This document shows positions 1 through 22,667 of a stretch of DNA of 22,667 nt, piece after piece (the first letter of the stretch is position 1; each line of letters begins with the position of its first letter). The DNA comes from a virus: the IMG/VR virus record IMGVR_UViG_3300034418_002352, positions 1 through 22,667 of that record; one strand, 5' to 3'. The notes under the pieces were generated by a model, which worked only from the letters and a program-made list of their open reading frames with translations, was not told where the DNA came from and ran no database searches. The translations under genes were made by a program, and so were the position numbers.

Positions 1-15
1 AACTGAACTATAACT

Positions 16-435
16 ATGGCACTAGAAGTAAAAAACAACGAAGAAAAGAAGTACGATGTATTCCGCTTTTCTATGGAGGATTTAGAAGAACAGAATCCTT
101 TCAATGACCTACCCGTAATTAAGAACGAGACGGCAGGTACATTCCACACACAGATGACTACCTCAGAGTTCTCATCTTACTGCCCATGGACGGGACACCC
201 CGACTATGCGACATTGACCATCTCATATCCTATCCCACCACAAGGGGTTGCCGTTGAACAAAAGGCACTAAGAGATTGGCTAAACAAGTTCCGAACTATT
301 GACCTTTACCAAGAAGAAATCACCTTCGGAGTTAAGTGGATGATTCATAAGGTTTGTGGATTACCGTTAGCGGAAATCTACGTCGAGGTTGATTGGAAAG
401 GCAGAGGGGGTATCAGCAACCTAGTAAAAGTATGA
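16..435 (+). CDS. queF: QueF-like 7-cyano-7-deazaguanine reductase (preQ0 to preQ1), T-fold family
   Basis: The 139-residue protein matches the short (type I, unimodular) QueF family. QueF reduces the nitrile of preQ0 to the aminomethyl group of preQ1 with NADPH. The segment SSYCPWTGHPDYATL holds the predicted catalytic Cys56 and Asp63, aligned with Cys55 and Asp62 of the Bacillus enzyme. EQKALRDWL (81-89) corresponds to the NADPH/substrate signature, and Glu100 to the base-recognising Glu. Two deviations are visible: the usual FHE is YQE (Gln99 in place of His), and the signature is weakened (Gln82, Arg86, Asp87). The next gene, a DpdA-like transglycosylase, starts inside its stop codon (ATGA), so the product is probably inserted into DNA rather than tRNA. 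The ATG at 16 is chosen because it follows a probable upstream stop (TAA, 10-12). Family assignment is firm; the exact reaction is inferred. Confidence 0.88.
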   Translation: MALEVKNNEEKKYDVFRFSMEDLEEQNPFNDLPVIKNETAGTFHTQMTTSEFSSYCPWTGHPDYATLTISYPIPPQGVAVEQKALRDWLNKFRTIDLYQEEITFGVKWMIHKVCGLPLAEIYVEVDWKGRGGISNLVKV

Positions 436-1226
436 TAAAACCCTTTACCCATTTCTTTAGTGGTTCAGCCCATACGGTGATTGAGCAGATGGTCAAGGAT
501 GGTATTGTGCATTCAATTATGCCGTCCTTTTACTATCCCGATGGGTTGGACTACTTAACGGGTAAGGAGAATGTAATCTGCGACTCGGGTGCCCACACAT
601 TGCAGGAGGATGGTACAGTACCCGACTTCGATGGTTACCACAATCGGTACAAGAACTTCATTGCTGACTACAAGCATAAAGACAAGATAATATGGGTAGA
701 ATTAGATGTCGACCAAGACACAGACATAACGATTCAACAAGTCGATGACTCAACCCGTGACCTAGAAAGATTAGGAATTAAAGTTATGCGAGTATGGCAC
801 AAAAATCGTGGTATTAAAGAATGGCAAAAATACTGCGATGAATACGACTATCTCGGACTATCAGCATTAGACGGATTGACCACTCAGCAATTAAACTACT
901 TGGTGGGTTACGCATACAAGAAGAAAGTGAAGGTTCACGGATTCGGATGTGGTCGTTGGCAGTTATGGACAAAGGTTCCTTTTTACTCAGTCGATAGTAC
1001 GTCACCATTGAAGGCAACCGCCTATGGTCAAGTATTGAATCCTACGGGTAACCGTACTCATGTCGAAAAGGTAAACTACCGTGACCAAATAGGTGGATTC
1101 TATAAGATGTTGAAACGTGAAAAAGGGTACAATAATGAGGTGGTCGCTCAGAATATCTACAAGATGTTAGAAATGGAAGCAAACGTTAGAAAATTATGGC
1201 ACAGAAGAAAGATAAACCAATGGTAA
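432..1226 (+). CDS. dpdA: DpdA-like DNA guanine transglycosylase (TGT fold) for 7-deazaguanine insertion
   Basis: The 264-residue protein resembles the DpdA branch of the tRNA-guanine transglycosylase superfamily, which exchanges guanine in DNA for a 7-deazaguanine base. Visible motifs, numbered from the ATG at 432, are CDSGA (50-54, probable general acid/base Asp51), ELDVD (90-94), GLSALDG (142-148), HGFG (169-172), and PFYSVDSTS, whose Asp188 sits where TGT has its nucleophile. The C-terminal cysteine zinc site of tRNA enzymes is absent, and the protein is shorter than a typical tRNA TGT, which argues against a tRNA role. An in-frame TTG at 393 would add 13 residues, but the ATG overlapping the queF stop is preferred. 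Pairing with queF suggests preQ1 or a derivative as substrate. The DpdA subtype cannot be settled by eye. Confidence 0.85.
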   Translation: MIKPFTHFFSGSAHTVIEQMVKDGIVHSIMPSFYYPDGLDYLTGKENVICDSGAHTLQEDGTVPDFDGYHNRYKNFIADYKHKDKIIWVELDVDQDTDITIQQVDDSTRDLERLGIKVMRVWHKNRGIKEWQKYCDEYDYLGLSALDGLTTQQLNYLVGYAYKKKVKVHGFGCGRWQLWTKVPFYSVDSTSPLKATAYGQVLNPTGNRTHVEKVNYRDQIGGFYKMLKREKGYNNEVVAQNIYKMLEMEANVRKLWHRRKINQW

Positions 1227-1858
1227 ATTTCAAAGAAATCGCTTTAGATAAGATGGTCAAAGCGGATTGGAACTATAAGAATGAACACGCTGAACTATCT
1301 GAGAAGTTAGTATCGAATATCAAGCGGAACGGACAAATTGAAAACCTCCTAGTGAGGGAACTAGATACGGGTTTCTACGAAGTGGTAAATGGTAACCACA
1401 GATACGATGCTTTGAAGACCCTTGGATGGGAAAAAGCAATCGTGTACGACCTAGGCAAGATATCCTTAGCACAAGCACAAAGAATTGCGATTGAAACGAA
1501 CGAAACTAAATTCTCGACTGATGTGATGGCATTGAGTGAGATAATGGGAGAGATTGCAAATTCTTTTGACCGAGAAGATTTACTACAAACCATGCCGTAC
1601 TCGGGTAAGGAATTAGACAACATGCTCGACTTGGTAAACTACGATTTCGAGGCTGATTCAGATTCCGCAGGACTCGGTGAGGAAATGGAACAGAAAGAAG
1701 ATAACGTCACACTCACGTTAGAGGTACCACCTATGGTATTCGAGATGTGGCAAACTTGGAAGGATAAAGTAACACTAAAGATTGGTTATGAAAGTGCCTC
1801 ACGAGCGTTTGAGTTCGCTATGGCTGAAGCATTAGATACTCAAGATGATGGCGTATAG
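1196..1858 (+). CDS. ParB/sulfiredoxin-fold phage protein
   Basis: The 220-residue protein has an N-terminal ParB-like domain (about 12-110). It carries the family box VVNGNHRYDAL (63-73), with Gly66-Asn67-His68-Arg69 at the nucleotide-binding position. The helical C-terminal part runs to an acidic linker (DSDSAGLGEEMEQKED) and a final helical domain. ParB-fold proteins are common beside phage terminases, where they act as nucleases, DNA binders or CTP/ATP-dependent switches. The gene overlaps dpdA by 31 nt; an alternative ATG at 1220 would leave a 7-nt overlap and keep the whole domain. It also overlaps the small terminase gene. Bacterial 7-deazaguanine islands contain DpdB, a ParB/sulfiredoxin-like partner of DpdA, so a helper role in base exchange is possible, but a packaging role fits the position equally well. 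Confidence 0.75.
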   Translation: MAQKKDKPMVNFKEIALDKMVKADWNYKNEHAELSEKLVSNIKRNGQIENLLVRELDTGFYEVVNGNHRYDALKTLGWEKAIVYDLGKISLAQAQRIAIETNETKFSTDVMALSEIMGEIANSFDREDLLQTMPYSGKELDNMLDLVNYDFEADSDSAGLGEEMEQKEDNVTLTLEVPPMVFEMWQTWKDKVTLKIGYESASRAFEFAMAEALDTQDDGV

Positions 1859-2210
1859 TAAGGATTTCATGCAGAAGGTACTTCAAGCAATAGGTACGGG
1901 ACTCACAGTCAAGGATGCTTGTGCCGTTGCAGGAATCAGTCGCCAAACCCTTTACAACCACATTGAAAAAGATGAGGAGTTCGCTCATGAATTTGAGAAG
2001 GCACAAGTCGCCTTTAAACTGACTCATCTAAGAAACGTAGCAAGTGCGTCCCAACAAGATTGGAAAGCATCGGCATGGATTCTTGAAAGGAAGTTCAAAG
2101 ATGAGTTCTCCCTACGCCAAGAGATGGTAGGTAAGGATGGCGAGGATTTGAATTTTCAAGTCAAGATAGTTGATGGAAGTAAGGACGAACAAGATATACC
2201 GACACCTTGA
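1845..2210 (+). CDS. terS: Terminase small subunit
   Basis: The 120-121-residue protein has an N-terminal helix-turn-helix (about 18-45; TVKDACAVAGISRQTLYNHI) followed by helices that probably form the oligomerisation stem. This is the usual plan of small terminase subunits, which recognise the packaging site and present DNA to the motor. ATG codons at 1845 and 1848 are both possible. The gene begins 14 nt before the end of the ParB-like gene, and its last 38 nt overlap the large-subunit gene, so translation is probably coupled. The assignment rests on the HTH, the size and the position directly before an unmistakable large subunit. Confidence 0.8.
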   Translation: MMAYSKDFMQKVLQAIGTGLTVKDACAVAGISRQTLYNHIEKDEEFAHEFEKAQVAFKLTHLRNVASASQQDWKASAWILERKFKDEFSLRQEMVGKDGEDLNFQVKIVDGSKDEQDIPTP

Positions 2211-3330
2211 AACGAGGCAAGGAAAGATAATCGTTGAACAAGGAGGTACCCGTTCGGGTAAGACCTACAATATACTCCTATGGTTAATCCTATCTTATTG
2301 TGCTAAGAACAAGGGTAAGATTATAACTATCTGCCGTAAAACATTCCCTGCCGTTAGAGCAACGGTTATGAGGGACTTTCTTGACATACTCGGCAACCTT
2401 AATTTATACCAAGACAAAAACCACAATCGTTCTAACTCAGAATACCGACTCAATGGTAACCTTGTTGAGTTTATAGCACTCGACCAACCACAGAAAGTCA
2501 GAGGTCGGAAACGGGATGTGCTATTCTGTAATGAGGCAAACGAATTGCACGTAGAAGATTTCCGTCAGTTAATACTCCGTACTGCTGAATTTACCATACT
2601 CGACTACAACCCCTCAGATGAGTTCCATTGGATATATGAACAAGTCATCCCAAGGGAGGATTGCGAATTTCACCAAACCACCTACTTGGATAATCCATTC
2701 TTGGAGCAGACAATCGTGGATGAGATTGAACGACTCAAGACGGTTAATCCCGACTATTGGAGAGTGTACGGATTGGGAGAACGAGCCGTCAGCAGGAGTA
2801 CCGTATTCAGATTCCAAACCGTGGTAGACATTCCACCCGAAGCAAAACACTTGGCATGGGGACTCGACTTCGGTTATACGAATGACCCTACTGCATTGGT
2901 GCAGATATACCGTGACCAAGATAATTTGTATCTAAACGAGGTTCTCTATGAAACGGGTATGACTAACCAAGATATTGGAAAGCGTTTAAGAGACATCGGT
3001 TTAACGAGGTCAGATGTGATTTATGCCGATTCCTCAGAACCCAAGTCAATAGAGGAACTATATAGAATGGGATTCAACGTCAAACCTGCGACCAAAGGTA
3101 GGGACTCAGTCAACTATGGTATAGACCTTATGCGTAGGCACTTACTATATTGGACAGAAGATAGCATCAATGGAATCCGTGAGATGAGGTCTTATAAATA
3201 TATAGAGGACAAGAACGGGTTACTAACCAATACCCCCGAGGATGCTAATAACCACTTAATTGATGCGGCAAGGTACGGAATACAATCTACGCTTAGTCGT
3301 CCTAACTACGGAAAGTACGCTATCCGCTAA
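2173..3330 (+). CDS. terL: Terminase large subunit (ATPase and nuclease)
   Basis: The 385-residue motor protein drives DNA into the prohead and cuts the concatemer. The ATPase domain has Walker A GGTRSGKT (24-31) and a Walker B-type strand DVLFCNEA (115-122), with Glu121 as catalytic carboxylate. The RNase H-like nuclease domain starts at LAWGLDFGYTNDPTA, with acidic residues Asp232, Asp286 (YADSSE) and Asp364 (HLIDAARYG). It resembles the PBSX/Terminase_3 group and is compact but complete. An in-frame TTG lies at 2170, but the ATG at 2173 is the natural start. It is the last gene of the modification/packaging run; the next gene follows a 117-nt gap. Confidence 0.95.
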   Translation: MEVRTNKIYRHLETRQGKIIVEQGGTRSGKTYNILLWLILSYCAKNKGKIITICRKTFPAVRATVMRDFLDILGNLNLYQDKNHNRSNSEYRLNGNLVEFIALDQPQKVRGRKRDVLFCNEANELHVEDFRQLILRTAEFTILDYNPSDEFHWIYEQVIPREDCEFHQTTYLDNPFLEQTIVDEIERLKTVNPDYWRVYGLGERAVSRSTVFRFQTVVDIPPEAKHLAWGLDFGYTNDPTALVQIYRDQDNLYLNEVLYETGMTNQDIGKRLRDIGLTRSDVIYADSSEPKSIEELYRMGFNVKPATKGRDSVNYGIDLMRRHLLYWTEDSINGIREMRSYKYIEDKNGLLTNTPEDANNHLIDAARYGIQSTLSRPNYGKYAIR

Positions 3331-3349
3331 TGTCAGACGCTTGTCACAC

Positions 3350-3367
3350 TTTTGCACTTTTGCAAAA
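3350..3367. repeat. Inverted repeat TTTTGCA-CTTT-TGCAAAA
   Basis: Two perfect 7-base arms (3350-3356 and 3361-3367) are separated by 4 bases, 20 nt after the terL stop and upstream of the promoter-like sequence at 3385. The arms are A/T-rich and lack a proper T-run, so this is a weak terminator candidate. It is better placed as a protein-binding operator, perhaps for the winged-helix protein encoded just downstream. The rest of the 117-nt gap (3331-3447) shows no ORF I believe in. Confidence 0.4.
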
Positions 3368-3384
3368 ATATACTACTCATCTTA

Positions 3385-3414
3385 TTGACATTCTGCTACT
3401 TACCATTAGTTTCG
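3385..3414 (+). promoter_or_regulatory. Bacteroidota-type promoter candidate before the winged-helix gene
   Basis: TTGACA at 3385-3390 and TAGTTTCG at 3407-3414 fit the flavobacterial housekeeping pattern TTG, 17-23 nt, TAnnTTTG. The spacing from TTG is 19 nt and there is one mismatch in the -7 box (TTCG for TTTG). It sits in the only sizeable gap before the 3448 gene, leaving a leader of roughly 25 nt. This is a sequence match only. Confidence 0.4.
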
Positions 3415-3447
3415 TATCACATTAAACAACAAACAAATTTAGATATT

Positions 3448-4299
3448 ATGAAAAAAGAAGTATTAGAAACCAAGAAGTTCAAGACAGTTAAGACACTTAG
3501 AGACATCGAGAATGACCCACGAGTAGCAGACATCCACAAAGAGGAAGGTCAATGGTGGGGTCTTTTGGTAGATGGGTATGAGTGGTGCCCCGAAGCACAG
3601 ATTTTTAGAGAGAAGACAATTAAGGAGATGTGCTACGTCTTGAATGAGTTAGTGTACGAGAAGGACACCGAGGAGATGAGAACGGTATCAAGTTTTCAAG
3701 AGTTCGAAGATTTCAAGCGTACCGACTTGAAGGATTCTTGGTCATGGGATTTCAAGTACAATGGTCACACGGTTTACCTTTATGCCGAGAAAGGCGACCA
3801 TGGTTGTGAGATTGAGAAGAATGGTGAGATGGTAACCAAGATTGAATGGTGTACTAATTTCGTCTACTGCGGTATGACGTTGCAAAGTTACTACTCAACT
3901 AGAAAGTGGGAATCATGGGAAGAAAGATTCGACCACTTGAGAAGGTGTCTAGATGATGAGCAGGTGCCTAAGGAAGACACCGCTCAGCAGAAAGCGAAGA
4001 AGAAAGTCAAGAAGGTGAAGGACAAGATTAGCGGTTTGAACGAGTCAGAAAGAAAGGTACTTAAGTGCCTAGCAGATGTAGCGGCAGACGTTGCAGGTGG
4101 CGACTTCGGGTACACAGATGACGTAGTTAAGATGGTAGATGTCTTAGATATGAGTAGGTCACAAATTAAGGGGTACATTAGTAGCATACTTAAGAAGGAG
4201 ATTATCGCAATCGACGAGGAAAGAGACGGGCAGTATATCTTCACGGATAAAGGATGGAAGGTACTTACCGAACTTGGTAAGGACTACTTGATGTTCTAA
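3448..4299 (+). CDS. Winged-helix protein with N-terminal small domain; possible phage regulator
   Basis: I do not recognise a named family. The 283-residue protein has a compact N-terminal domain (about 10-60; DPRVADIHKEEGQWWGLLVDGY), followed by a W/Y/C-rich central part, a lysine-rich linker (KAKKKVKKVKDK) and a C-terminal winged-helix-like domain. The latter runs from LNESERKVLKCL through SRSQIKGYISSILKKE to a YIFTDKG wing. The ATG at 3448 is preferred; an in-frame TTG at 3352 would add an N-terminus resembling a signal peptide, across the probable promoter, which does not suit a DNA-binding protein. It is a single-gene unit between a promoter-like sequence and a strong terminator, standing apart from the tightly overlapping structural genes, which suggests regulation of late transcription. 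Function is inferred. Confidence 0.7.
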   Translation: MKKEVLETKKFKTVKTLRDIENDPRVADIHKEEGQWWGLLVDGYEWCPEAQIFREKTIKEMCYVLNELVYEKDTEEMRTVSSFQEFEDFKRTDLKDSWSWDFKYNGHTVYLYAEKGDHGCEIEKNGEMVTKIEWCTNFVYCGMTLQSYYSTRKWESWEERFDHLRRCLDDEQVPKEDTAQQKAKKKVKKVKDKISGLNESERKVLKCLADVAADVAGGDFGYTDDVVKMVDVLDMSRSQIKGYISSILKKEIIAIDEERDGQYIFTDKGWKVLTELGKDYLMF

Positions 4300-6170: not shown

Positions 6171-7266
6171 AGAACAACCAAGTAGCATAAAAGGGGCATT
6201 GAGTAGTATGCTATACCAAGTGTACGATTCCAACTATGCTCAACCCGACTTCCAATATGAGTTCAATATCTACATTTGGAACGGAGTAACAAGACCTGCA
6301 TCACCGCAGGTAACAATACAAAAGAAAGCAGACCAATTTGCATCCTACCGAGCCTTCATAGATATTAGTCGGTTGGTAACTCAGTATATAGATGATGCCT
6401 TCCTTAATTTCACATCTGCAACCGCACCAATAGATGTGGGGGCTTGTTGGGTGCAAATTCGAGCGTTAGCATTTTGGGATGGAGGTAGTTCGTCTACAAT
6501 CGAATCTAACAAGGTTTTAGCGACAAAAGGGTATGAATACACCTCAGAAGGATTTAATGCAAGCACAACGCAAGTGCTATTGTCTGACCGCACAACTATA
6601 CGCCTCACAGAAGACACGATTCAAGATTGGTTGTTCTACGATGCAGGTCGAGTGAATCAGATAGACATTTCTACGTCAACTATAACTCCTTTACCTACGG
6701 GTAGCAATAGTGGGTTAGAAATCCAAGGATTCGACATTCGGGATGCTATGGAATCTGCAGGGGTGTGGGGTACTGATACGAATATGGTTATTACCTATGA
6801 CGGGGCAAGTACATTGACTATCCCAATCACGTTCGACTGCACTAATAAGTATGGCGCAGTATCATTGGTGTATCTCAACAAGTATGGTGTCTACGATTCC
6901 TACACATTCAATGCCTTGAGTAATGACTCGTTAACCAAGAACCAAGAAACCTTTCAGAAGGCTATTTTTGATAGGGCAGACATGACTCACTACTTTGACT
7001 ATGGCGTACCTCAAGATACTTTCTACAATATCCAAGCACACCAAACCAAGACGGTTAACACGAATTGGATTCCCGAAGACGAGGTAGGCATAATTCAACA
7101 GATATTCTTATCCAAGAGAGTGTACATAATTGAAGACGGAAAGTACACTGCTTGTTCTGTTGCAAATACTGACTTCCAAGAACAAAAAGCAGACAACGAA
7201 AAGTTAATAAACTACACTCTGCAACTTGCAGTATCTCACCCACTAATTAATCAGATAGTTCGATGA
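6160..7266 (+). CDS. Distal tail/baseplate structural protein
   Basis: The 368-residue, largely beta protein belongs to a group I recognise in Bacteroidota phages between the neck genes and the large baseplate gene. It has an N-terminal YEFNIYIW strand region, a central segment with YGAVSLVYLNKYGVYDSYTF, and a C-terminal TVNTNWIPEDEVGIIQQIFLS part ending in INYTLQLAVSHPLINQIVR. The position before the large baseplate gene and the tape measure suggests a distal tail or tail-tip ring. It starts 11 nt inside the gp10-like gene, and the next gene starts in its stop codon (ATGA). No enzymatic motif is visible. Confidence 0.6.
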   Translation: MNFEEQPSSIKGALSSMLYQVYDSNYAQPDFQYEFNIYIWNGVTRPASPQVTIQKKADQFASYRAFIDISRLVTQYIDDAFLNFTSATAPIDVGACWVQIRALAFWDGGSSSTIESNKVLATKGYEYTSEGFNASTTQVLLSDRTTIRLTEDTIQDWLFYDAGRVNQIDISTSTITPLPTGSNSGLEIQGFDIRDAMESAGVWGTDTNMVITYDGASTLTIPITFDCTNKYGAVSLVYLNKYGVYDSYTFNALSNDSLTKNQETFQKAIFDRADMTHYFDYGVPQDTFYNIQAHQTKTVNTNWIPEDEVGIIQQIFLSKRVYIIEDGKYTACSVANTDFQEQKADNEKLINYTLQLAVSHPLINQIVR

Positions 7267-9929
7267 GGTTTTCTTTGATAGTTGACGGCACACCAATCGA
7301 CCTATTCCAAGACGAGACAATCGAATTGAATAGGCAGTATAAAGACCTCACAGACCTTGGTAAAGTCATGACGGATTTTACCAAGTCATTTACCATACCT
7401 GCTACCGATGTGAACAACTCGGTATTTTCAAATTGGTTTGAGGAGAATGTGTTACTGACATCTTGGAATCAAAACATAGCATTAGATGCAGAGATTCACC
7501 TTCACGGTTTACCCGTGTTCTACGGCAAGGTTGAACTGCAAGAAGTGAACTTCATAGATGGGTTACCTAGGGACTATGCGATTACCTTCTACGGACAAGG
7601 AAAGTCACTATTAACTACGTGGGGTGAAGACACCATGGTGCAAATTGATTGGTCGGAATATGACCACACCGTAGACGATGGAGTAGTCGAAGCATCATGG
7701 ACGGGAGGATTAAATAGCGGTGAGTTAGTATGGGATATTAAAGATTATGGAATCGGGTATGTCTATTCATCGGATAACGTTCAACGAAACCTAAGGAAGG
7801 AAAATGTCCTAACCTATAAGAATCTAAGACCTAGCATACTGTTGAAAAAGGTAGTAGAAAAGATATTTACTGACTATGACTTAACCATTGGAGGTACACT
7901 ACTTGACCGCCCCGAGTTTACCAATCTTTTTGTGACTCCTATGAATACCCAAGGACCATACGAAGACCCGTACCAAGGCAGGTTGTACAATTTTGAAGCA
8001 ACCAATACTGCGGCAATCACGTTGAGTCCTAATACTGCATGGTCGGGAAACACTAGGTTGGCTATTGGTGATACTTCTGTTTATGACCCTTCTAGTTTAT
8101 GGGACACGGGAGCGTATGAATACACGGTTCCAAAGACGGGTAAGTACACCTTCGAAATAACCTTTACTACAATTAGTGGAGGCAATCCATTTACTGATGG
8201 TATTTCAATATGGGTTTCTAAGAATGGGGCAAAAACCAAGTTTGTGTGGTTTGATGACTTTAACCAATTCTACGTCAAGTTTGAGAACAAACCATGGAGG
8301 GTGTACTTACCATGTGATGAAGGGGATAAGATTTCTTGGGATATAACTTACGTCACTCAGAATCCTATTGACTTGAATGCCACCGTAAAGTGTGTAGGTT
8401 CACCATACTTTTCGAATCCCGTTGTGTCTATGAAGTACACCTTCCCGAACACCAAGATAACAGAATTTCTTTCTTCGTTTCTTAAAACGTTCAACGGCAT
8501 AGTTGTACCGATAAGCGAAACCTCCTACGAATTGCATAACCTAGAGGATTGGTACAATAGTGGGACTATCAAAGAATACACCGAGTATATTGACTTCAAA
8601 AGCATCAACCACAAGAAGGTTGAGATACCAAAGAAAGTCATGTTTAAACACGATGACGGACAGACAACTCAATCGCAAGAATACTTCCGTCAAACTCACA
8701 ACCGCTTATTTGGTGATGTTGAATTTTCACCCGAGGTAGATTTCAGCACGGGAGAATTAGAAATTAAATCTATGTTTAGCGTACTCCCATTGACCTTTAC
8801 TAATGCCGTTACCAAGACGGGGTATGTGGTAGGTGCGACGCAATTACAGATACCATGGGTTTTTGATGCAGAGATTAAAGGAACTAAACACGACTATATA
8901 CTATTCTATTTTCAAGAGCCAACCGCAATAAACGAAATTGTCTATTTAGGTTCAAATCAGATGTCTTCACTACCAATTTCAAGCCCATTTAGTGGGATAG
9001 GTCAAGATGCTTATTCTGTGGCGTTTGGATTAGAATCGAACGTAAGTGGTGACCTGCCTAAGAACACCTTGTATTTTGGTTTTTGGAATGAGTATATTTC
9101 TCGTCTATATAGCAGTCGTAGTAGGATAGTAACCATGACTGCACACATTCCCGTAGGTGAGTGGTTAGACATGAACCTTAACGATGTGATTGCTATCTCG
9201 GGCAACTACTACATCTTGCAGAAGGTTACGTATGACCTTACCACCGAGAAAGGTAAGATTGAATTAATGACTTATCCTAATGTAGATGTCTTAGAGATAA
9301 CTTCTACATCGGGTAGTGGTATCACATGGGGAGACCCCGTGTCTGCGGATGCAGGATTAACCTTTGTCCGTGGTGACTTTGTTAAGACGGGATTCAACGC
9401 ATTAAGTGATGGTACTAATTGGGTAGGTGACCCCGATACCGATGGCGACAAACAAGCAACACCTCTTGGGTTCTCAACGGTATCTTTGACTGATGCTTTG
9501 GCAAACGTCCTTGCATTGAATAAAGGCACCATGTGGTGGGACACCCCTCAGACGGTTCTTGTAGACCCTGCAGGTGCAACTATCCTATATGACCAATACC
9601 AAGTTTTAGGTGATGAATCGTACTACACTTTTGACCCTATGTCGGGTACTATTACCATTGAAGAATCGGGTAACTATTCACTACACTTTGCAGGGACGGT
9701 AGACGTTCAAGGTAGTGTACGAGTTAAAACCGCTATCATGACTGATGGAAGTGAGTTACCTAACGTATCAATAACAGAAGGCAACCATCACCACTCGATT
9801 AATGTCATGGTGACTAATGTCTTTTATGCAGGTAACACCATCACCGTGAACGTATCAAGTGACGATGGTAGTTCCTCACCCGAAGATTTCACCCGAGTAT
9901 ACCTCACTATTCAACGATTAACGCAGTAA
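7263..9929 (+). CDS. Large baseplate/tail-tip protein
   Basis: This is the largest protein of the window (888 residues). The N-terminal domain (about 1-130; DGTPIDLFQDETIELNRQ, then DLGKVMTDFTKSFTIPAT, then HGLPVFYGKVELQEV) is a signature I recognise from Bacteroidota phage tail-hub/baseplate proteins. The middle is beta-rich, with hub-like segments (KITEFLSSFLKTFNGIVVP; GEWLDMNLNDVIAISGNYY). The C-terminus, roughly 765-888, looks like a jelly-roll (GNYSLHFAGTVDVQGSVRV and HHHSINVMV strands), as in C1q-like tail tips. Translation is probably coupled to both neighbours by start/stop overlaps. It likely forms the adsorption apparatus with the preceding protein; carbohydrate binding by the last domain is inference. 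Confidence 0.7.
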   Translation: MRFSLIVDGTPIDLFQDETIELNRQYKDLTDLGKVMTDFTKSFTIPATDVNNSVFSNWFEENVLLTSWNQNIALDAEIHLHGLPVFYGKVELQEVNFIDGLPRDYAITFYGQGKSLLTTWGEDTMVQIDWSEYDHTVDDGVVEASWTGGLNSGELVWDIKDYGIGYVYSSDNVQRNLRKENVLTYKNLRPSILLKKVVEKIFTDYDLTIGGTLLDRPEFTNLFVTPMNTQGPYEDPYQGRLYNFEATNTAAITLSPNTAWSGNTRLAIGDTSVYDPSSLWDTGAYEYTVPKTGKYTFEITFTTISGGNPFTDGISIWVSKNGAKTKFVWFDDFNQFYVKFENKPWRVYLPCDEGDKISWDITYVTQNPIDLNATVKCVGSPYFSNPVVSMKYTFPNTKITEFLSSFLKTFNGIVVPISETSYELHNLEDWYNSGTIKEYTEYIDFKSINHKKVEIPKKVMFKHDDGQTTQSQEYFRQTHNRLFGDVEFSPEVDFSTGELEIKSMFSVLPLTFTNAVTKTGYVVGATQLQIPWVFDAEIKGTKHDYILFYFQEPTAINEIVYLGSNQMSSLPISSPFSGIGQDAYSVAFGLESNVSGDLPKNTLYFGFWNEYISRLYSSRSRIVTMTAHIPVGEWLDMNLNDVIAISGNYYILQKVTYDLTTEKGKIELMTYPNVDVLEITSTSGSGITWGDPVSADAGLTFVRGDFVKTGFNALSDGTNWVGDPDTDGDKQATPLGFSTVSLTDALANVLALNKGTMWWDTPQTVLVDPAGATILYDQYQVLGDESYYTFDPMSGTITIEESGNYSLHFAGTVDVQGSVRVKTAIMTDGSELPNVSITEGNHHHSINVMVTNVFYAGNTITVNVSSDDGSSSPEDFTRVYLTIQRLTQ

Positions 9930-15191: not shown

Positions 15192-15542
15192 ATGGTCATC
15201 AACTCAGATACCTCAAGTATCACCATAGCACCTTTTGTGACGTTACCCATACCTGCTACGTCGATGCAGTTGGTAGTAATTCACAAAGCAACGAAGAAAA
15301 CCGATACGCTTACGATTACACCCACAATAGATGCGAGCAGAGCAACGTTCTCTATTGCGTCCCTACCTAATGTCAGTTCCGTGGCACAAAACAAAGACGA
15401 ATTGATTATCCGAGTTCTTGCATCAGATGTGCTATACTACGAGTCGAGTGCCTATTGGATAGTTGGTACGACTGACATCAATACAACATGGAAAGATTTT
15501 ACGACTACCGACAACCAAAGTAAAGATTGGATAACTATATGA
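15192..15542 (+). CDS. Small beta-rich protein before the portal
   Basis: The 116-residue protein is Ser/Thr-rich and mostly beta (SITIAPFVTLPIPATSMQLVV; DTLTITPTIDASRATFSIA), without cysteine. I do not recognise a family with certainty; a small structural or tail-accessory role is plausible from its place between tail tube and portal. Its stop overlaps the portal start (ATGA), so the two are probably translated together. Confidence 0.6.
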   Translation: MVINSDTSSITIAPFVTLPIPATSMQLVVIHKATKKTDTLTITPTIDASRATFSIASLPNVSSVAQNKDELIIRVLASDVLYYESSAYWIVGTTDINTTWKDFTTTDNQSKDWITI

Positions 15543-17809
15543 AGAACATTGGAGTAGTACAACTTGCGAGTTATTCCTCACCTGCAATAGTACAACAGAA
15601 AAACAAAGATTGGGTTAAGTATGGGGAGGATGATAACTACTATCAGTACCTTATAGACTTATACCATACTTCGCCTACTAATAACGCTTGTGTGAGGGGT
15701 ACCGCAGACCTTATCTACGGACAAGGATTAGAGGTTATTAAAGCGGATAGACACCTCAAAGGTTATCTTGAATACAAGATGCTATTTGAAGATGACTGCA
15801 TCCGTAAACTTACCCTTGACCTCAAGATGCTTGGTCAATGTGCCATCCAACTTGTTAAGAGCAAGGACAAATCAAGATACGCAAAAGCATACCACTTTCC
15901 CGTTCAAACGCTAAGGGCAGAAAAAGCCAATGAAGATGGTGAAATTGAGGGGTACTATTACCACCACGATTGGAATAAAAAGAAACGTGGAGAAAAGCCA
16001 AAAAGATTTGCTGCTTTTGGATTCGATTCAACGGAAAAAGAGTGCATCTTATTTATAAAGCCATATAGTACGGGAAGCGAGTATTACGCCCCCGTAGATT
16101 ACCAAGGTGGTACTCAATGGTCAGAACTCGAAGGTGAGATTAGTAACTACCATCTAAACAATATCAAGAATGGATTAGCCCCTTCCATGCTCATCAACTT
16201 TAACAACGGTGAGCCACCCGAAGAAACTAAGGACATTATTGAAGGACAGATTGCTGATAAATTTAGCGGTTCATCTAATGCAGGTAGGTTTATTATTGCC
16301 TTCAACGATAACGCAGATAGCAAAGCAGATATTACTCCTATTCAACTGAGTGATGCCCACAACCAATACCAATTCTTGAGTGATGAGTGCATGAGAAAAA
16401 TCATGGTCAGTCATCGAATCACATCTCCTATGCTTCTTGGGATAAAAGATACATCGGGATTGGGTAACAATGCGGACGAGATTAAGACGGCATCTACTTT
16501 GTTTGATAACACGGTAATCCGACCTTTCCAAAATCTGATTATCTCAGCAGTAAAGAAGGTATTGATTGCAAACAAAACTCCCGTAGATTTATACTTTAAG
16601 ACACTTCAACCTCTTGAGTTCACCGATTTAAGTGGAAAGAATGTGGATAGTACAACCCAAGAAAAGGAGTACGGATTTAGCGTACAAATGAGTGCGGTAA
16701 GTTCAGTAGATGGGATGCCGTTGTATTCAACACCCGAGGAAGCAATAGCAAAAGCAAGTAGTATGGGATGCAAAGGTTACCACGCTCACAATACTGCAGA
16801 AGGTAAGACCCTCTATATGCCTTGCGAAGACCACAACCAAACAGTTAACCTTGCCGATTCATATACCGACTATCCACAAGGTGCATCTAGTAACGCTAAA
16901 AGGGCATTAGAATGGGTAGAAAAACATGGGTGGGGTTCTTGCGGTGAAGCAACGGGAAAACGTCGTGCTTCGCAATTAGCAAACAAAGAACCGATTTCGA
17001 GGGATACTATCGCTAGAATGGCATCGTTCAAGAGACATCAGCAACACAAGGATGTGCCGTATTCTGAAGGGTGTGGTGGATTGATGTGGGACGCATGGGG
17101 AGGAGATGCAGGTATAAATTGGGCAATTAGAAAACTCGAAGAAATAGATTCTCAAAAGCAGTCACAACAACTTTCATGTGACCATGTTGAATTGACCGAC
17201 GAGGTTGAGGCTGAATGGTTAGAATTCTTGGAAGATAAAGGTGAAATTATAAACGAAGACGAGTGGGAGTTAATCGAAGAAGTAGAGGCTGACCCCGATG
17301 AACCAATGCCTACCGAGTTGACCGCCCGTTATTCATCACCCGACAAGAAGTCAAAAGACGATAAAGGTATCTACAAGATTAGGTACAGATATGGTCCTAA
17401 TAAACTCAAAGAAAACAGTAGGCACTTCTGTAAGCAGATGATTGCATCAAGGAACAAAGGAGTTGTGTACAGAAGGGAGGATATCGACATCATGTCTAGG
17501 AACGGAGTAAACTCAGATTTTGCACCTAAAGGCAAAGCGAGTTACTCAATATGGAAATTCAAAGGAGGAGTGTATTGCCACCATGCTTGGTATCGTTTGA
17601 CGTATAGACGTAAGAACGAAGCAGGTCGAGGTAGTATGGTTAAACCTTTGACACCTTCAGAAAAGTCAAGTGGGCGTAGAGATATGGACAATTACAATCC
17701 CGTACCAAACTCCGAAGCAAACAGAGATGGAGTACCATTTAACCCACCAAGTTGGGACACGGCAAAAACCCGTCCCATAGATATGCCAAGTAAAGGAAAA
17801 TTACAATGA
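15539..17809 (+). CDS. Portal protein with extra C-terminal modules
   Basis: The 756-residue protein begins with a portal domain (about 1-390). Visible segments are DWVKYGEDDNYYQYLIDLY, SPTNNACVRGTADLIYGQG, LAPSMLINFNNGEPP, and SHRITSPMLLGIKDTSGLG, a classic portal stretch. Three further modules follow. A short Cys/His segment (about 390-432) has MPLYSTPEEA, GCKGYHAH and YMPCEDH. A helical module (about 447-537) has AKRALEWVEKHGWGSCGEAT, ISRDTIARMASFKRHQ and WDAWGGDAGINWA, known from phage head proteins including XkdF relatives. An acidic linker and a Cys/His-containing C-terminal domain (about 597-756; DFCK-like HFCKQM, VYRREDIDIMS, YSIWKFKGG) complete it. The ATG at 15539 is preferred to an upstream TTG at 15527. 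It is much longer than a bare portal. Confidence 0.88.
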   Translation: MKNIGVVQLASYSSPAIVQQKNKDWVKYGEDDNYYQYLIDLYHTSPTNNACVRGTADLIYGQGLEVIKADRHLKGYLEYKMLFEDDCIRKLTLDLKMLGQCAIQLVKSKDKSRYAKAYHFPVQTLRAEKANEDGEIEGYYYHHDWNKKKRGEKPKRFAAFGFDSTEKECILFIKPYSTGSEYYAPVDYQGGTQWSELEGEISNYHLNNIKNGLAPSMLINFNNGEPPEETKDIIEGQIADKFSGSSNAGRFIIAFNDNADSKADITPIQLSDAHNQYQFLSDECMRKIMVSHRITSPMLLGIKDTSGLGNNADEIKTASTLFDNTVIRPFQNLIISAVKKVLIANKTPVDLYFKTLQPLEFTDLSGKNVDSTTQEKEYGFSVQMSAVSSVDGMPLYSTPEEAIAKASSMGCKGYHAHNTAEGKTLYMPCEDHNQTVNLADSYTDYPQGASSNAKRALEWVEKHGWGSCGEATGKRRASQLANKEPISRDTIARMASFKRHQQHKDVPYSEGCGGLMWDAWGGDAGINWAIRKLEEIDSQKQSQQLSCDHVELTDEVEAEWLEFLEDKGEIINEDEWELIEEVEADPDEPMPTELTARYSSPDKKSKDDKGIYKIRYRYGPNKLKENSRHFCKQMIASRNKGVVYRREDIDIMSRNGVNSDFAPKGKASYSIWKFKGGVYCHHAWYRLTYRRKNEAGRGSMVKPLTPSEKSSGRRDMDNYNPVPNSEANRDGVPFNPPSWDTAKTRPIDMPSKGKLQ

Positions 17810-18318: not shown

Positions 18319-18449
18319 AGAAAGCATACCAACCAAAAGAAAAATATGTGGTTAAACTCACAAAGTATTATACTAAAATAGTTACCAATGAAAGCAAGGA
18401 AAATCGAAGCGGTTCAGTTCCTACGAATCGACAAAAGAAGAAACCGTAA
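18315..18449 (+). CDS. Small basic protein (44 aa)
   Basis: A 44-residue frame starts in the connector stop codon (ATGA) and overlaps the next gene by 62 nt. It begins MKKAYQPKEKYVVKLTKYYT and ends QKKKP, with about a third Lys/Arg. The coupling overlap supports it; the long overlap with the next frame speaks against both being equally important. Function unknown. Confidence 0.4.
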   Translation: MKKAYQPKEKYVVKLTKYYTKIVTNESKENRSGSVPTNRQKKKP

Positions 18450-18672
18450 GAATCTCAACTACCATATCTTAGTCGATGAGTCAAAGCATAGCCTTGGCGT
18501 AGATATATTATTCAACATAAAGGATATGCCTAAAAACTCCCTAGTGGTAGCGTATCGTTCTACTGTGAGCAAGGAGATGCTAAAAAACGTAGTCACCACG
18601 TACCTTGAGAAATTGAAATTACACTTAGATTATGAGATACCTGCTGACCTTGTTGATTCTGAGTCTGACTAG
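18388..18672 (+). CDS. Small protein of unknown function (94 aa)
   Basis: The N-terminus is very basic (MKARKIEAVQFLRIDKRRNR). A beta-alpha pattern follows (YHILVDESKHSLGVDILFNI, then SLVVAYRS), and the end is acidic (DLVDSESD). I recognise no family. It sits between the connector and the spanin candidate, which starts 41 nt before its end. The upstream A/T-rich stretch contains no clear two-box element. Confidence 0.55.
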   Translation: MKARKIEAVQFLRIDKRRNRKNLNYHILVDESKHSLGVDILFNIKDMPKNSLVVAYRSTVSKEMLKNVVTTYLEKLKLHLDYEIPADLVDSESD

Positions 18673-19045
18673 TTGCTCGGCAAGGTGGCACTTAAACCAA
18701 GCGATTAAGAAAGACCCTACCATAGTAGATACGGGTATCGTCTACAAATTTGATACTACCATAGTTAGCGATAGCATAGTTATCCAAGATACGTTAGTGA
18801 CCAAAGAAATAGACACCCTAACTATCCACGACATTGAAAATAAGGTCACTACTCAGATAATTCGCATTAGCGACACGCTTTTGGTTACAACCATAGTTGC
18901 ACCCGATACGATTGAGATAATCAAGCAGATGCGAAGCAAACCACGGATAATCAAAAATGAACGCATTCCTTGGTATAAAAATCTGTTCTTTTGGATTTCA
19001 GCCGTTCTATTAGTATTACTATCATGGGTAATTGGAAGAAAATAA
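18632..19045 (+). CDS. Lipoprotein with C-terminal membrane helix; probable u-spanin
   Basis: The 137-residue protein begins with a lipoprotein signal (MRYLLTLLILSLTSC) whose lipobox LTSC places the lipidated residue at Cys15. It ends with a membrane helix (about 117-134; NLFFWISAVLLVLLSWVIG). Between them lies a periplasmic stretch of beta-prone, repeated DT-containing segments. A lipid anchor at one end and an inner-membrane helix at the other is the topology of unimolecular spanins, which fuse the inner and outer membranes in the last step of lysis of Gram-negative hosts. It is not next to the holin and amidase, which lie about 3 kb downstream. It overlaps both neighbours. Confidence 0.65.
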   Translation: MRYLLTLLILSLTSCSARWHLNQAIKKDPTIVDTGIVYKFDTTIVSDSIVIQDTLVTKEIDTLTIHDIENKVTTQIIRISDTLLVTTIVAPDTIEIIKQMRSKPRIIKNERIPWYKNLFFWISAVLLVLLSWVIGRK

Positions 19046-19188
19046 TACCATCGAGGTCAGCACCAAAGAAGAAAGACCGTGCTTGTTTGTGCAAAGATAG
19101 AAACACCTATTCTAAGAAGTGTTGTGATGGGTCACTTTGGGCACAAGGTATAGGTCGCATAACCCAAGACCCTAGCAATCCCAAATAA
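19024..19188 (+). CDS. Small cysteine-rich protein (54 aa)
   Basis: The frame starts at the ATG at 19024, overlapping the spanin gene by 22 nt. A basic N-terminus leads to the cluster CLCKDRNTYSKKCCDGSLWA with four cysteines, then QGIG. I recognise the CxC...YSxxCCDG...QGIG pattern as recurrent in small proteins near the adhesin genes of Bacteroidota phages. The cysteines could bind a metal or form disulfides at the tail tip. Function unknown. Confidence 0.6.
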   Translation: MGNWKKIIPSRSAPKKKDRACLCKDRNTYSKKCCDGSLWAQGIGRITQDPSNPK

Positions 19189-19220
19189 CCAACAAATCAA
19201 ATATCAAAAGTTTTATTATT
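19189..19220 (+). promoter_or_regulatory. Two-box element (copy 3) before the tail-tip cluster
   Basis: CCAACAAA (19189-19196; one change from CTAACAAA), 14-nt spacer, TTTTATTA (19211-19218) preceded by G, then 2 nt and the ATG at 19221. It has the same 32-nt geometry as copies 1 and 2 and lies in a true intergenic gap in front of the adhesin operon. Confidence 0.5.
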
Positions 19221-19493
19221 ATGAGTATATCAGCACAAAGTTTTTCAGCAGGTTACACGGGTTGCAAAGTAATAAGCAACACAAGCGCAAACACGGGCGA
19301 ATTTCGTGGGTTCGTAGTAAATGACGATGCGGTGGTTTCCGCTATATTAGATAAGGATGGTTCAAGCATATTAAGCGATTTGGGACTAAGTGGGGTTACA
19401 CTTCGTAGCGGTATTTTTATAGCCGTTGAAAGTGGCGATTTCATTAGTTCTATTACCTTAACTAGCGGTTCCATTGTAGCGTACACAAGATGA
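19221..19493 (+). CDS. Small tail-tip protein (90 aa)
   Basis: The 90-residue protein is Ser/Gly-rich and beta-type, with FVVNDDAVVSAILDKDGSSI, DLGLSGVTLRSGIFIAVESG and ISSITLTSGSIVAY. I recognise this short family as recurring ahead of adhesins in Bacteroidota phages. It may be a trimeric spike or collar piece. The next small gene starts in its stop codon (ATGA). Confidence 0.6.
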   Translation: MSISAQSFSAGYTGCKVISNTSANTGEFRGFVVNDDAVVSAILDKDGSSILSDLGLSGVTLRSGIFIAVESGDFISSITLTSGSIVAYTR

Positions 19494-19627
19494 TTGGTGT
19501 TCGTGTTTGGTCAACCCGATACAAGGGTGAGGCTTTTAGTTTATTTAATGCCTATCGCTCCCGTGTTGAATCGGATGGAGGAGTAGTAGAGGCGTTTAGT
19601 TGTACCATTGCAGGATTAAGATTATGA
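19490..19627 (+). CDS. Small conserved-motif protein (45 aa) between tail-tip genes
   Basis: This 45-residue frame has ATGA overlaps at both ends and fills an otherwise empty 130-nt gap. It ends with AYRSRVESDGGVVEAFSCTI, a VxxDGGxVEAxxC motif I know from small proteins or segments beside Bacteroidota phage tail fibres. The motif and perfect coupling make it a real gene despite its size. Function unknown. Confidence 0.65.
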   Translation: MIGVRVWSTRYKGEAFSLFNAYRSRVESDGGVVEAFSCTIAGLRL

Positions 19628-21351
19628 GTTTATTGAATGATGCAAGTTTGGTAATGATACCAAGCGGCTATAAGGATGGAAAACTCTATAGTCAAAAACC
19701 TACAGACGGAGATGGAGATTTTACCTTTAGTCGTGGTTCTAACTTAGCGGCTACAAGAGTTAATAGTGAGGGGTTAATAGAGAAGGGAAGAGAGAATCTG
19801 TTGTTGCAGAGTAATGGGTTTAATCAAGCAGGTTGGGGTATATCGAGTGCAACTCTTACGAGTGGACAATCGGGTTATGATGGTAGTTCAAATGCGTGGT
19901 TATTAGATAGTAGTTCGGAAGGATATTTATTTCAATATCCAACATCTTCAAATGTTGGTACTTTAAGTATTTATGCTAAAGCAAACTCTGTTAATAATTT
20001 ACGATTAAGAACTTTTGGTGCATCAATCAACGCAGAAGGTTTCTTTGATTTAGCAAATGGAGTTGTAGGTTCATCAACTAATTTAATTGATTTATCTATT
20101 GAATCTATAGGTGGTGGATGGTATAGATGTTCTGTAGTATATGATAATGCACCTTCATTGATACGGATATACCCTTCAGTAAGTTCAAGCACAAGTTCTG
20201 GAACTATTGGCTCAGTCTATATCCAAGACGCTCAGCTGGAAGTCGGTTTAGTTAGTACAGACGTAATCACTACAACCACCACAACTGCACAAGCGGGTAT
20301 TCTTGAAGATATGCCACGCCTTGACTATTCGGGTGGGGCGAGTTGTCCGTCGTTGTTGTTAGAGCCTCAGAGGAGTAATCTGTTTGATTTTAGTGAATAC
20401 TTTGAGGGTTCATATTGGGGTAAAACTCAACAAGGGAGTGCAAGTGTTCCAGTAGTTACGGGTAATTATGCAATAAGCCCAGAAGGTGTACAAAACGCAA
20501 CAAGGGTTCAATTTGATGCGGTAGGTTCTACGAGTTCAGATAGAAGCGGATTAGTTAGGGATTTTGCATTTACAAGCGGTACGACGTATTCTATTTCTTG
20601 TTGGGTAAAAGCGACAAGTGGGAATAATGAGTTGGTTCAATTTAGAGTTGCTGGTGCTCAAGTTGGAGGCGAACAAACGGCAACCGACGAATGGCAATTA
20701 TTTACGGCAACGCACACGGCAACGGTATCTACTACGGATAATTTTGGAATGCAAGTTCGTGGTAATAATACCACAAATGAAAGCGATATTTTAATTTATG
20801 GGATGCAGTTAGAACAAGCATCTTACCCCACATCCTACATACCTACCTATGGTGGTTCAAGTGTAACGAGGTCGGAAGATGCTTGTAGTAAGACGGGTAT
20901 TAGTTCGTTGATTGGGCAGACGGAGGGGGTTGTATTTGTAGAATTTGACCAAAATTTAATTGGGCAATCAGCAACCCGTAGAATTTTTGCTTTGAATGAC
21001 GGCACTACAAGTAACCGAATAACTGCCTATATCAGCAGTACAAATAAGATTGATTTTTATGTGCGTAATTCGGGAGGAGATTTATTTTTTGGAAATTCAA
21101 CTCTACCTATTGGAAATGAAAAAGGCGTTCACAAAATCGCTTGTGCTTATAAGGATGAAGATTATGCCGTATACATGGACGGAGATTTAATTATTAGCGG
21201 AACTGGTACGGCTGGAACAATCCCAGCGTGTAGCCGTTTTGACTTGGGGCAACAAATTGGGGCAAATGATTTATACGAACCAATCAATCAAGCCCTACTA
21301 TTCAAAACCCGACTAACAAACGACGAATTAGCCGAACTAACAACCTTATAA
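19624..21351 (+). CDS. Adhesin/tail fibre with two CBM-like modules and a lectin-like end
   Basis: The 575-residue protein probably contacts the host surface. The N-terminus (SLLNDASLVMIPSGYKDGKL, then FTFSRGSNLAATRVNSEGLI) is the conserved anchor of Bacteroidota phage adhesins. Two related beta-sandwich modules follow, about 55-210 and 258-410. Each opens with RENLLLQS or RSNLFDFS and closes with AQLEVG or MQLEQA, and they are joined by a Thr-rich linker and MPRLDYSGGASCPSLLLEPQ. The C-terminal part (about 412-575; SSLIGQTEGVVFVEFDQNL, then HKIACAYKDEDYAVYMDGDL) looks like a concanavalin/LamG-type domain. The ATG at 19624 (ATGA with the upstream gene) replaces an upstream in-frame ATG at 19600. 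From about 20198 to 21226 it contains words missing everywhere else, suggesting recent import. Confidence 0.8.
   Translation: MSLLNDASLVMIPSGYKDGKLYSQKPTDGDGDFTFSRGSNLAATRVNSEGLIEKGRENLLLQSNGFNQAGWGISSATLTSGQSGYDGSSNAWLLDSSSEGYLFQYPTSSNVGTLSIYAKANSVNNLRLRTFGASINAEGFFDLANGVVGSSTNLIDLSIESIGGGWYRCSVVYDNAPSLIRIYPSVSSSTSSGTIGSVYIQDAQLEVGLVSTDVITTTTTTAQAGILEDMPRLDYSGGASCPSLLLEPQRSNLFDFSEYFEGSYWGKTQQGSASVPVVTGNYAISPEGVQNATRVQFDAVGSTSSDRSGLVRDFAFTSGTTYSISCWVKATSGNNELVQFRVAGAQVGGEQTATDEWQLFTATHTATVSTTDNFGMQVRGNNTTNESDILIYGMQLEQASYPTSYIPTYGGSSVTRSEDACSKTGISSLIGQTEGVVFVEFDQNLIGQSATRRIFALNDGTTSNRITAYISSTNKIDFYVRNSGGDLFFGNSTLPIGNEKGVHKIACAYKDEDYAVYMDGDLIISGTGTAGTIPACSRFDLGQQIGANDLYEPINQALLFKTRLTNDELAELTTL
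20198..21226 (+). other. Island with CTGG/CCAG/AGCT words inside the adhesin gene
   Basis: CTGG occurs at 20198, 20236, 20651, 21203 and 21212. CCAG occurs at 20449, 20479 and 21223. AGCT occurs at 20234. I found none of these words anywhere else in the window. The segment covers the end of module one, module two and the start of the lectin-like domain, and fits a recombined cassette not yet adapted to the genome's word avoidance. Confidence 0.7.
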
Positions 21352-21353
21352 AA

Positions 21354-21716
21354 ATGTTCAGAAAATACGAATTTAAATCAGAAACAGAAGCCAACACCTA
21401 CATCGAGAATTTAGGAGTTGACGAAGATGGTAACCCAAGCCATCCTCATAGCATCGTGCGATTGGGTAATATAGTTCTAACCGAAGGCGAATACGATAGC
21501 GAAGGTGAGGTCATAACCGAACCCGTTCTATCTACCAACTACCACGTTGATGTATTGTGGCAAGGTAATGCCTTAAGTTCTTGGGATTCAAAAATGGTGT
21601 GGTGTCAACCTATGGGCGTTCATACGTTTGGAAGTTCAAGGGCAATCGCTGAATGGACTGAGAAATGTAAAGAGTTGCACCCCGAGTATTTCCCCGAACC
21701 AATAGAAGAAATATGA
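21354..21716 (+). CDS. Adhesin-associated protein of unknown function
   Basis: The 120-residue protein begins 2 nt after the adhesin. It starts YEFKSETEANTYIENLG, has an acidic middle (EGEYDSEGEVITEP), then YHVDVLWQGNALSSWDSKM, and an acidic end (HPEYFPEPIEEI). Proteins of this size and pattern directly after Bacteroidota adhesins are common and may be adhesin chaperones or accessory tip proteins; this is inferred from position. The holin-like gene starts in its stop codon. Confidence 0.6.
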   Translation: MFRKYEFKSETEANTYIENLGVDEDGNPSHPHSIVRLGNIVLTEGEYDSEGEVITEPVLSTNYHVDVLWQGNALSSWDSKMVWCQPMGVHTFGSSRAIAEWTEKCKELHPEYFPEPIEEI

Positions 21717-22024
21717 AGACATTTTTTGACGAAATAGGAATCAACATAATGCAGTCAGTAGCAGGGCTATTTGGCTCACTTTTGTTTCTTGGCAAGGAGG
21801 GAGCAAAAAACATTAAGCAATCCTTGTTTGCAATAATCACGGGAACGGCATCGGCTAACTATCTGACTCCCGTTGTGATTGAATTTACCAAGATAGAAAA
21901 TACCAAGTACGAGAATGGTATCGCCTTTATTCTTGGGTTTTTAGGACTCAAAGGAGTAGAAGCAATCAGTAAGAAATTCTTTAAAGAAAAAGTACAAGAT
22001 GGAACTACTACAAGCAATAAATGA
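21713..22024 (+). CDS. Holin-like membrane protein
   Basis: The 103-residue protein has two to three hydrophobic segments: IMQSVAGLFGSLLFLG, a central SLFAIITGTASANYLTPVVI, and GIAFILGFLGLKGVEAI. A charged end follows (KKFFKEKVQDG). Size, topology and the place just before an endolysin support a holin of the Bacteroidota phage type, which would release the amidase to the cell wall. It overlaps the next membrane protein by 26 nt. Confidence 0.7.
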   Translation: MKTFFDEIGINIMQSVAGLFGSLLFLGKEGAKNIKQSLFAIITGTASANYLTPVVIEFTKIENTKYENGIAFILGFLGLKGVEAISKKFFKEKVQDGTTTSNK

Positions 22025-22286
22025 AATCGCTAACCTATTGGTATGCGGAAACGCTACGCTATTCTACATTTTTGTCTTTGGTAGGCAGGTGTCAAGGATT
22101 GACAAACTTCCATTAGCAGAGAAGATATTGCTAAGGGTAGGACTTGCTTTACCTGCAGTTATGGGGCTATGGAATGTCTTATACATGAGTTACCCACCTC
22201 CTGCTGAGATTTTGATGAACGTTGGTTATGCTTGTCTATTTACTTGGGCATCTATCTTCCACTATAAGCAATTTGTAAGAAAATAA
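21999..22286 (+). CDS. Small membrane protein, second holin or antiholin candidate
   Basis: The 95-residue protein has three hydrophobic stretches (LVCGNATLFYIFVFG; LLRVGLALPAVMGLWNVLYM; LMNVGYACLFTWASIFHY) and a short basic end. It lies between the holin-like gene and the amidase, ending one base before the amidase start. Paired membrane proteins before an endolysin often act as holin and antiholin, but which is which cannot be told here. Confidence 0.55.
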   Translation: MELLQAINEIANLLVCGNATLFYIFVFGRQVSRIDKLPLAEKILLRVGLALPAVMGLWNVLYMSYPPPAEILMNVGYACLFTWASIFHYKQFVRK

Positions 22287-22287
22287 G

Positions 22288-22667
22288 ATGGGACTAAATA
22301 AGCATACCTTCTACAAGTTTGAGAATTATATCCACCAAGTAACCGAGAAAAAGCAGATTTACTTACACCACACCGCAGGTGGTGGTGAAGGGGAGTCAAC
22401 TTTCCGATATTGGGATTCTGATTCAACGCCCGTAGCAACCTGCGTCTGCATATCTCGAGATGGCACAATCGTACAAGGGTTCTCATCTCAGAATTGGGCA
22501 TACCATCTTGGGCTTAAAACAAGGCACTTTTCTGAGTACGGAGTAGGGTATCAAAACCTTGACAAGATTAGCATAGGAGTTGAGATTTGTAATTGGGGTT
22601 TCCTTACCGAGAAGAACGGCAAGTTCTATTCTTGGGCAAAGAAGGAGATACCCAAGGAGAAAGTGTA
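22288..22667 (+). CDS. N-acetylmuramoyl-L-alanine amidase endolysin (partial, cut by window end)
   Basis: The first 126 residues of an Amidase_2-type enzyme are visible. QIYLHHTAGGGEG holds the first probable zinc ligand (His27 or His28). CVCISRDGTIVQGF and WAYHLGLK follow in family order, as does SIGVEICNWG. The enzyme cuts the bond between MurNAc and the L-Ala of the stem peptide. The remaining zinc ligands and the stop lie beyond the window. It has no signal peptide, in keeping with release by the upstream holin-like proteins. Confidence 0.88.
   Translation, partial: MGLNKHTFYKFENYIHQVTEKKQIYLHHTAGGGEGESTFRYWDSDSTPVATCVCISRDGTIVQGFSSQNWAYHLGLKTRHFSEYGVGYQNLDKISIGVEICNWGFLTEKNGKFYSWAKKEIPKEKV

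Follow-up and report, generated by a model that had tools for sequence, protein, structure and literature searches.

For Type II recognition sites, elimination from a phage genome (observed/expected ratio <0.1) is found in about 7% of site-genome pairs; for other restriction-modification types it is rare (Rusinov et al. 2018, PMC6286503). Coliphages with modified (hydroxymethylated) DNA hardly avoid sites, 2.4% versus 55.8% (PMC6286503). For modification by 7-deazaguanine, the full gene set comprises FolE, QueD, QueE, QueC and DpdA (Hutinet et al. 2019, PMC6884629). Phages Dp-1 and HVTV-1, which have QueF-type proteins, carry dPreQ1, and modification protected DNA from many enzymes; in Dp-1, only about 1.7% of G is present as dPreQ1 (PMC6884629). 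Here we analyse the complete IMG/VR record IMGVR_UViG_3300034418_002352 (positions 1-22667, GC 41.4%; hereafter the window), a phage genome fragment in which four 4-bp words are absent and three more nearly so. The missing words are very probably targets of Type II restriction systems, chiefly ones that recognise 4 or 5 bp, with restriction as the agent suggested by the pattern of loss. As in the cases of Rusinov et al., Type II words have been eliminated from a double-stranded DNA phage genome. Unlike those cases, seven 4-bp words, one of them non-palindromic, and several 5-bp words have been lost at once, and unlike the modified coliphages, the window lineage avoids sites extensively alongside a predicted modification. 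The phenomenon is of a known kind, restriction-site elimination, here extreme and doubled by a modification pathway. New here are the scale of the loss, its reach to asymmetric and one-letter-excluded words, the resolution of turnover in the eliminated set and the coexistence with a complete predicted modification pathway.

Counts were compared with expectations from an order-2 Markov model and are given as observed/expected. Over the whole window, GATC (0/89), GGCC (0/24), CCGG (0/41) and CGCG (0/17.5) were absent, while AGCT (1/51), GCGC (2/16, at 6854-6857 and 19285-19288) and CCAG plus CTGG (8/96) were nearly so. An earlier sequence-only reading had reported the same counts and GCGC positions, had placed all eight CCAG/CTGG within one 1-kb stretch (confirmed here at 20198-21223) and had estimated GC at about 42%; all of this was borne out, and the Markov expectations confirmed the depletion. 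A protein-preserving null, in which synonymous codons were swapped between occurrences of each amino acid in 500 shuffles, agreed. It predicted 68 GATC, 59 AGCT, 113 CCAG/CTGG, 24 CCGG, 22 GGCC, 22 CGCG and 23 GCGC, corresponding to z scores of -12.3 for CCAG, -10.1 for GATC, -9.0 for AGCT, -6.0 for CCGG, -5.4 for both GGCC and CGCG and -4.7 for GCGC. For every one of the seven words, the minimum over the 500 shuffles was well above the observed count. One-letter neighbours of the eliminated words are plentiful in the window. Chance and composition are therefore excluded as the source of the missing words.

Codon choice retains the trace of selection. Before a codon starting with C, aspartate was encoded by GAC 54 times and never by GAT, whereas elsewhere GAT (264) outnumbered GAC (160; p=2e-21). 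After G, none of 116 isoleucine codons was ATC (p=1e-19); after A, none of 138 alanine codons was GCT (p=4e-17); and after C, none of 70 glutamine codons was CAG (p=1e-11). Likewise, none of 123 tryptophan codons was preceded by C. The codon switch with the next or previous base thus falls exactly where an eliminated word would arise. Loss was reached through synonymous choice where possible, as is characteristic of restriction-site avoidance.

The list of missing words given by the sequence-only reading was correct but incomplete. It had called CCTG common, but CAGG/CCTG is depleted (52/87) and occurs solely as GCAGG/CCTGC. Hence HCAGG (ACAGG, CCAGG, TCAGG) is absent (0/66), versus 52/21 for GCAGG. 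CAGC occurs mostly as TCAGC (47 copies), and RCAGC is nearly lost (1/27, made up of ACAGC 0/13 and GCAGC 1/14). Further overlooked words were AGWCT (5/48), CASTG (3/22) and GGWCC (7/29), as well as 6-bp palindromes: those free of eliminated 4-mers reach in aggregate 0.45 of expectation, versus 0.62-0.78 in six comparison phages. Among the palindromes described as common, CATG (64 copies) and TCGA (72) are indeed present in numbers, but CTAG is about half-depleted (39/80).

Relatives of the window were collected with its terminase large subunit as query, and loci of at least 10 kb from its clade and neighbouring clades were surveyed. GGCC was eliminated in 29 loci, CATG in 27, CCGG in 26, GATC and CTAG in 24 each, AGCT in 23, CCAG in 12, GCGC in 11, ACGT in 8, CGCG and CCCG in 7 each, and CAGG and TCGA in 4 each; overlapping loci of one contig were counted separately, so these numbers are approximate. 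GTAC was eliminated in none of the surveyed loci. Relatives thus draw different sets from a common vocabulary, made up mostly of palindromes that Type II enzymes are known to target. The mean Jaccard index of eliminated sets was 0.59 at 95-100% terminase identity and 0.22 at 85-95%, already near the background of 0.13-0.14; the sets turn over quickly. This contradicts equal depletion in all related phages, which the sequence-only reading had named, together with equal depletion in hosts, as a finding that would count against it.

The sister lineage L004 (78% terminase identity to the window) resolves such a change. Both lineages eliminate GATC, GGCC, CCGG, GCGC, AGCT and CCAG. L004 additionally eliminates CATG (0/53), TCGA (0/28) and CAGG (0/52) and keeps CGCG (7/13), whereas the window holds 64 CATG, 72 TCGA and 52 GCAGG. 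At window sites where the protein is unchanged in L004, 0 of 26 CATG/TCGA were kept, compared with 13 of 31 GTAC and 61 of 79 CCAT. As read from these sequences, the turnover pattern is the expected signature of changing restriction systems, not of base composition. The loss of HCAGG with GCAGG spared recurs in a second clade (L024, L026, L030, L034, L035), and given this recurrence it probably reflects one specificity and not chance. Words lie far below expectation with composition controlled, and the eliminated sets are lineage-specific, both as in restriction-site avoidance.

Three side observations came from the same survey. Over the entire locus L152, the asymmetric 4-bp word GAGC/GCTC was absent (0/53), together with GATC (0/52). 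CCCG/CGGG, a candidate asymmetric target, was eliminated in all contexts (0-1 versus 10-24 expected) in L007, L011, L046, L058, L061, L064 and L123. Strong elimination was also seen in a haloarchaeal virus, Halogranum virus HGTV-1 (L183, first 50 kb), with GATC 0/213, AGCT 0/152, CTAG 0/69 and CATG 8/142.

The few remaining sites in the window are clustered. Positions 1-20190 contain no CCAG/CTGG and no AGCT, whereas the sole AGCT (at 20234) and all CCAG/CTGG fall in the second half of a plus-strand tail protein gene (19627-21351; phrog_5939), within an unpurged stretch of about 1 kb (20190-21230). There, CCAG occurs at near-normal frequency (8 versus 5.2 expected); outside 20100-21351, CCAG is 0/91 and AGCT 0/48. 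The near-identical contig L165 reaches about 8.7 kb past the window, and the 10 kb after the tail gene are free of GATC, GGCC, CCGG, AGCT and CCAG. Other phages have homologues of the tail gene that contain neither GATC nor CCGG but have CCAG at about the expected frequency, and their similarity to the segment is patchy and mosaic-like. The simplest reading of these comparisons is that the segment was imported from a phage under other restriction pressures, too recently for purging. Separately, in locus L167 (10748-15674), the left part belongs to another phage and the right part matches the window lineage at 99.6-99.96% identity; the contig could be a recombinant or a chimeric assembly and carries no weight in the argument.

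Avoidance on this scale stands beside genes for DNA modification. The window opens with a queF-like preQ0 reductase gene (16-435, plus strand; PF14489) followed by a dpdA-like DNA transglycosylase gene (432-1226, plus strand; phrog_887). The best match of QueF is TIGR03139, preQ1 synthase, below its cut-off, and its CPxTGxPD active-site motif aligns with that of solved QueF nitrile reductases; sequence alone cannot separate a preQ1-yielding QueF from a QueF-L amidotransferase (PMC6884629). In DpdA, the aspartate motifs DSGA and DSxS (D50-S51-x-A53 and D187-S188-x-S190) are invariant with those of CAjan, 9g, MS1 and NP1 DpdA at 21-22% overall identity; a search of the PDB with the DpdA sequence returned no relative. 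QueD, QueE, FolE and QueC lie beyond the window end and were read from the near-identical relatives L165 and L164, where they and a SET-domain protein gene lie upstream, adjoining queF-dpdA. The complete block (QueD, QueE, a FolE fusion, QueC, QueF, DpdA) thus spans window 16-1226, L165 12397-14384 and L164 7030-10390. The lineage therefore appears to encode the full predicted gene set for 7-deazaguanine (preQ1-type) DNA modification. The FolE, QueD, QueE, QueC and DpdA set is like that of CAjan, 9g, Dp-1/MS1, NP1 and halovirus HVTV-1, and the QueF-type protein is like that of Dp-1 and HVTV-1. The sequence-only reading was right about restriction but had overlooked queF and dpdA, which make the avoidance surprising.

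The 3.9-kb pathway block is itself purged (GATC 0/15, CCAG 0/15). L004 shares the gene order QueF-DpdA-ParB-TerS-TerL and has purged three further words, also from queF-dpdA. The purged pathway genes and the further purging in L004 therefore suggest that the predicted modification has not replaced avoidance and apparently does not ease the pressure on these sites. In the DpdA phages CAjan, 9g, MS1 and NP1, the first 50 kb of each genome show no eliminated 4-bp word, against seven in the window lineage; these controls have other hosts, and the comparison is suggestive only. Modification may be either sparse, context-limited or serving another purpose. We tentatively propose, at somewhat less than even confidence, that the lineage has long held the full pathway and still had to clear almost all short restriction targets, and that the asymmetric or one-letter-excluded words (CCAG, HCAGG with GCAGG spared, RCAGC with TCAGC spared) mark undescribed flavobacterial restriction systems. 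In the open-licence literature, we found no report of deazaguanine phages with extensive site elimination.

A recent gain of the pathway, with avoidance as a relic of the time before modification, is an unlikely account of this coexistence. Among the collected loci, dpdA and queF occur in a single small clade only, as a recent gain would have it, and when viral contigs were searched more widely for DpdA relatives, only members of this clade came up. The pathway genes, unlike the imported tail segment, are free of the words (0 versus about 15 GATC and 15 CCAG), and L004, with the same gene order, purged CATG, TCGA and CAGG even from queF-dpdA. A donor already devoid of all the words could nevertheless have supplied clean genes.

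Much less probable is that 7-deazaguanine within the words attracted a modification-dependent nuclease (Type IV or Dpd-type), so that the phage was purged on account of its own modification. DpdA-bearing loci (the window lineage and L004) are among the most-eliminating, with 7-9 words against a median of 2. However, L026 and L030, in which dpdA was not found, eliminate overlapping sets of 7 words, and the four DpdA control phages eliminate none. A Type IV, LpnPI-like target CCDG, which would cover both CCAG and CCGG, was rejected, since L012 and L013 lose CCAG and keep CCGG.

Mutational decay, in which host or phage methylation erases words without restriction, for example by deamination of 5-methylcytosine, is less probable still. 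Methylation is indeed known at many of the words, but deamination of CCGG would yield CTGG/CCAG, which are also eliminated, and neither GGTC/GACC nor GTGC/GCAC is enriched. Adenine methylation at GATC is not mutagenic in this way. Moreover, decay would not bring counts to exact zero, and entire sets change between relatives at high identity. Compositional or codon-usage bias with no tie to defence can be dismissed almost entirely: ordinary phages, too, are somewhat poor in 6-bp palindromes (about 0.7), but a shuffle that keeps composition and codon usage still expects 13 to 113 copies against the 0-8 observed, one-letter neighbour words are abundant and relatives of similar GC differ word by word. 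Avoidance of CRISPR protospacer-adjacent motifs was also rejected, as the phage has lost many words that are mostly palindromic and unrelated to one another, while single words such as GG stay common.

Long exposure to several restriction systems, the cause favoured by the sequence-only reading, is therefore best supported, by codon switching, turnover of the sets and imported DNA that retains the words. The lineage would meet Type II systems in its hosts, probably Flavobacteriaceae; selection would remove each site, often by synonymous substitution, down to none, and then maintain its absence. An encounter with new systems would change the set of eliminated words, and recombination with other phages would reintroduce sites, here CCAG and AGCT in the tail-gene segment. 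The encoded preQ1-type modification would leave restriction pressure at these sites apparently unrelieved.

The closest annotated relative of the portal protein belongs to Nonlabens phage P12024S (Inhavirus), a phage of a marine flavobacterium. Terminase relatives in bacterial assemblies were found in metagenome-assembled genomes (MAGs) of Flavobacteriaceae and Winogradskyella and in one labelled Epsilonproteobacteria (possibly a binning error). Because of the portal kinship and the Flavobacteriaceae and Winogradskyella MAGs, the hosts are probably (marine) Flavobacteriaceae. Of 150 genomes of a probable host's family, 11 had HpaII-type (CCGG) and 4 had HaeIII-type (GGCC) restriction enzymes, while GATC enzymes of DpnII type were present in 3 and of MutH/Sau3AI type in 4. 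Such a patchy distribution is as would be expected of a turning-over pool; NgoPII-type GGCC enzymes gave no match anywhere, which is uninformative. Several points weigh against restriction as the cause. Each enzyme family searched (for CCGG, GGCC or GATC) is rare (2-7% of genomes), no single host was found with all these systems, and the host itself is known by inference only. For GCWGC, AGWCT and HCAGG, analogy is the sole ground for invoking restriction, and the case as a whole is built on sequence.

P12024S resembles the window in eliminating GGCC (0/35) and nearly CCGG (2/34). Unlike the window, it keeps GATC, AGCT and CCAG and has no annotated DpdA; its portal is 37.5% identical. CCAG had been singled out as the least ordinary target. 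It is indeed non-palindromic, but it has precedents: Helicobacter pylori A45 has a CCAG methyltransferase (hp944), and a CCAG motif is known from T. phaeum (PMC10689673). The enzyme hp944 shows CCAG to be a true methyltransferase motif; it lies outside Flavobacteriaceae, and phage restriction at CCAG was not shown there.

Eliminated words may allow one to read which restriction enzymes a phage lineage has survived, even with host and enzyme uncultured. The record left in this clade is exceptionally clear: counts reach exact zero, sets differ among many relatives, and an import that looks datable has kept its words. Unknown specificities (CCAG, HCAGG, CCCG, GAGC) and their turnover could be inferred from metagenomic phage DNA alone. 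That avoidance persists beside a full pathway runs counter to the simple idea that chemical modification frees a phage from having to avoid sites, and opens this idea to testing.

Terminase, portal, capsid protease, tail and amidase genes identify the window as a tailed-phage fragment. The plus strand encodes a ParB-N domain protein at 1196-1858, the terminase small subunit at 1848-2210 and the terminase large subunit at 2170-3330. Among annotated phage records, a search for near-identical sequence gave no match to the window. Where they overlap it, contigs L002, L162 and L165/L164 share at least 98% identity with the window. In L164, the SET-domain protein gene (9220-9621) lies between queC and queF, and FolE (GTP cyclohydrolase I, 7743-8576) has an extra N-terminal domain of ~100 amino acids, phosphoribosyltransferase-like by eye. 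The portal gene (15527-17809, plus strand; portal protein placed at 15539-17809) is fused to a long C-terminal part (residues about 444-546), which other phages and haloarchaeal tailed viruses share at up to 88% identity. A DUF3721 domain (Pfam PF12518, above cut-off) lies inside this fusion, at portal residues 400-436.

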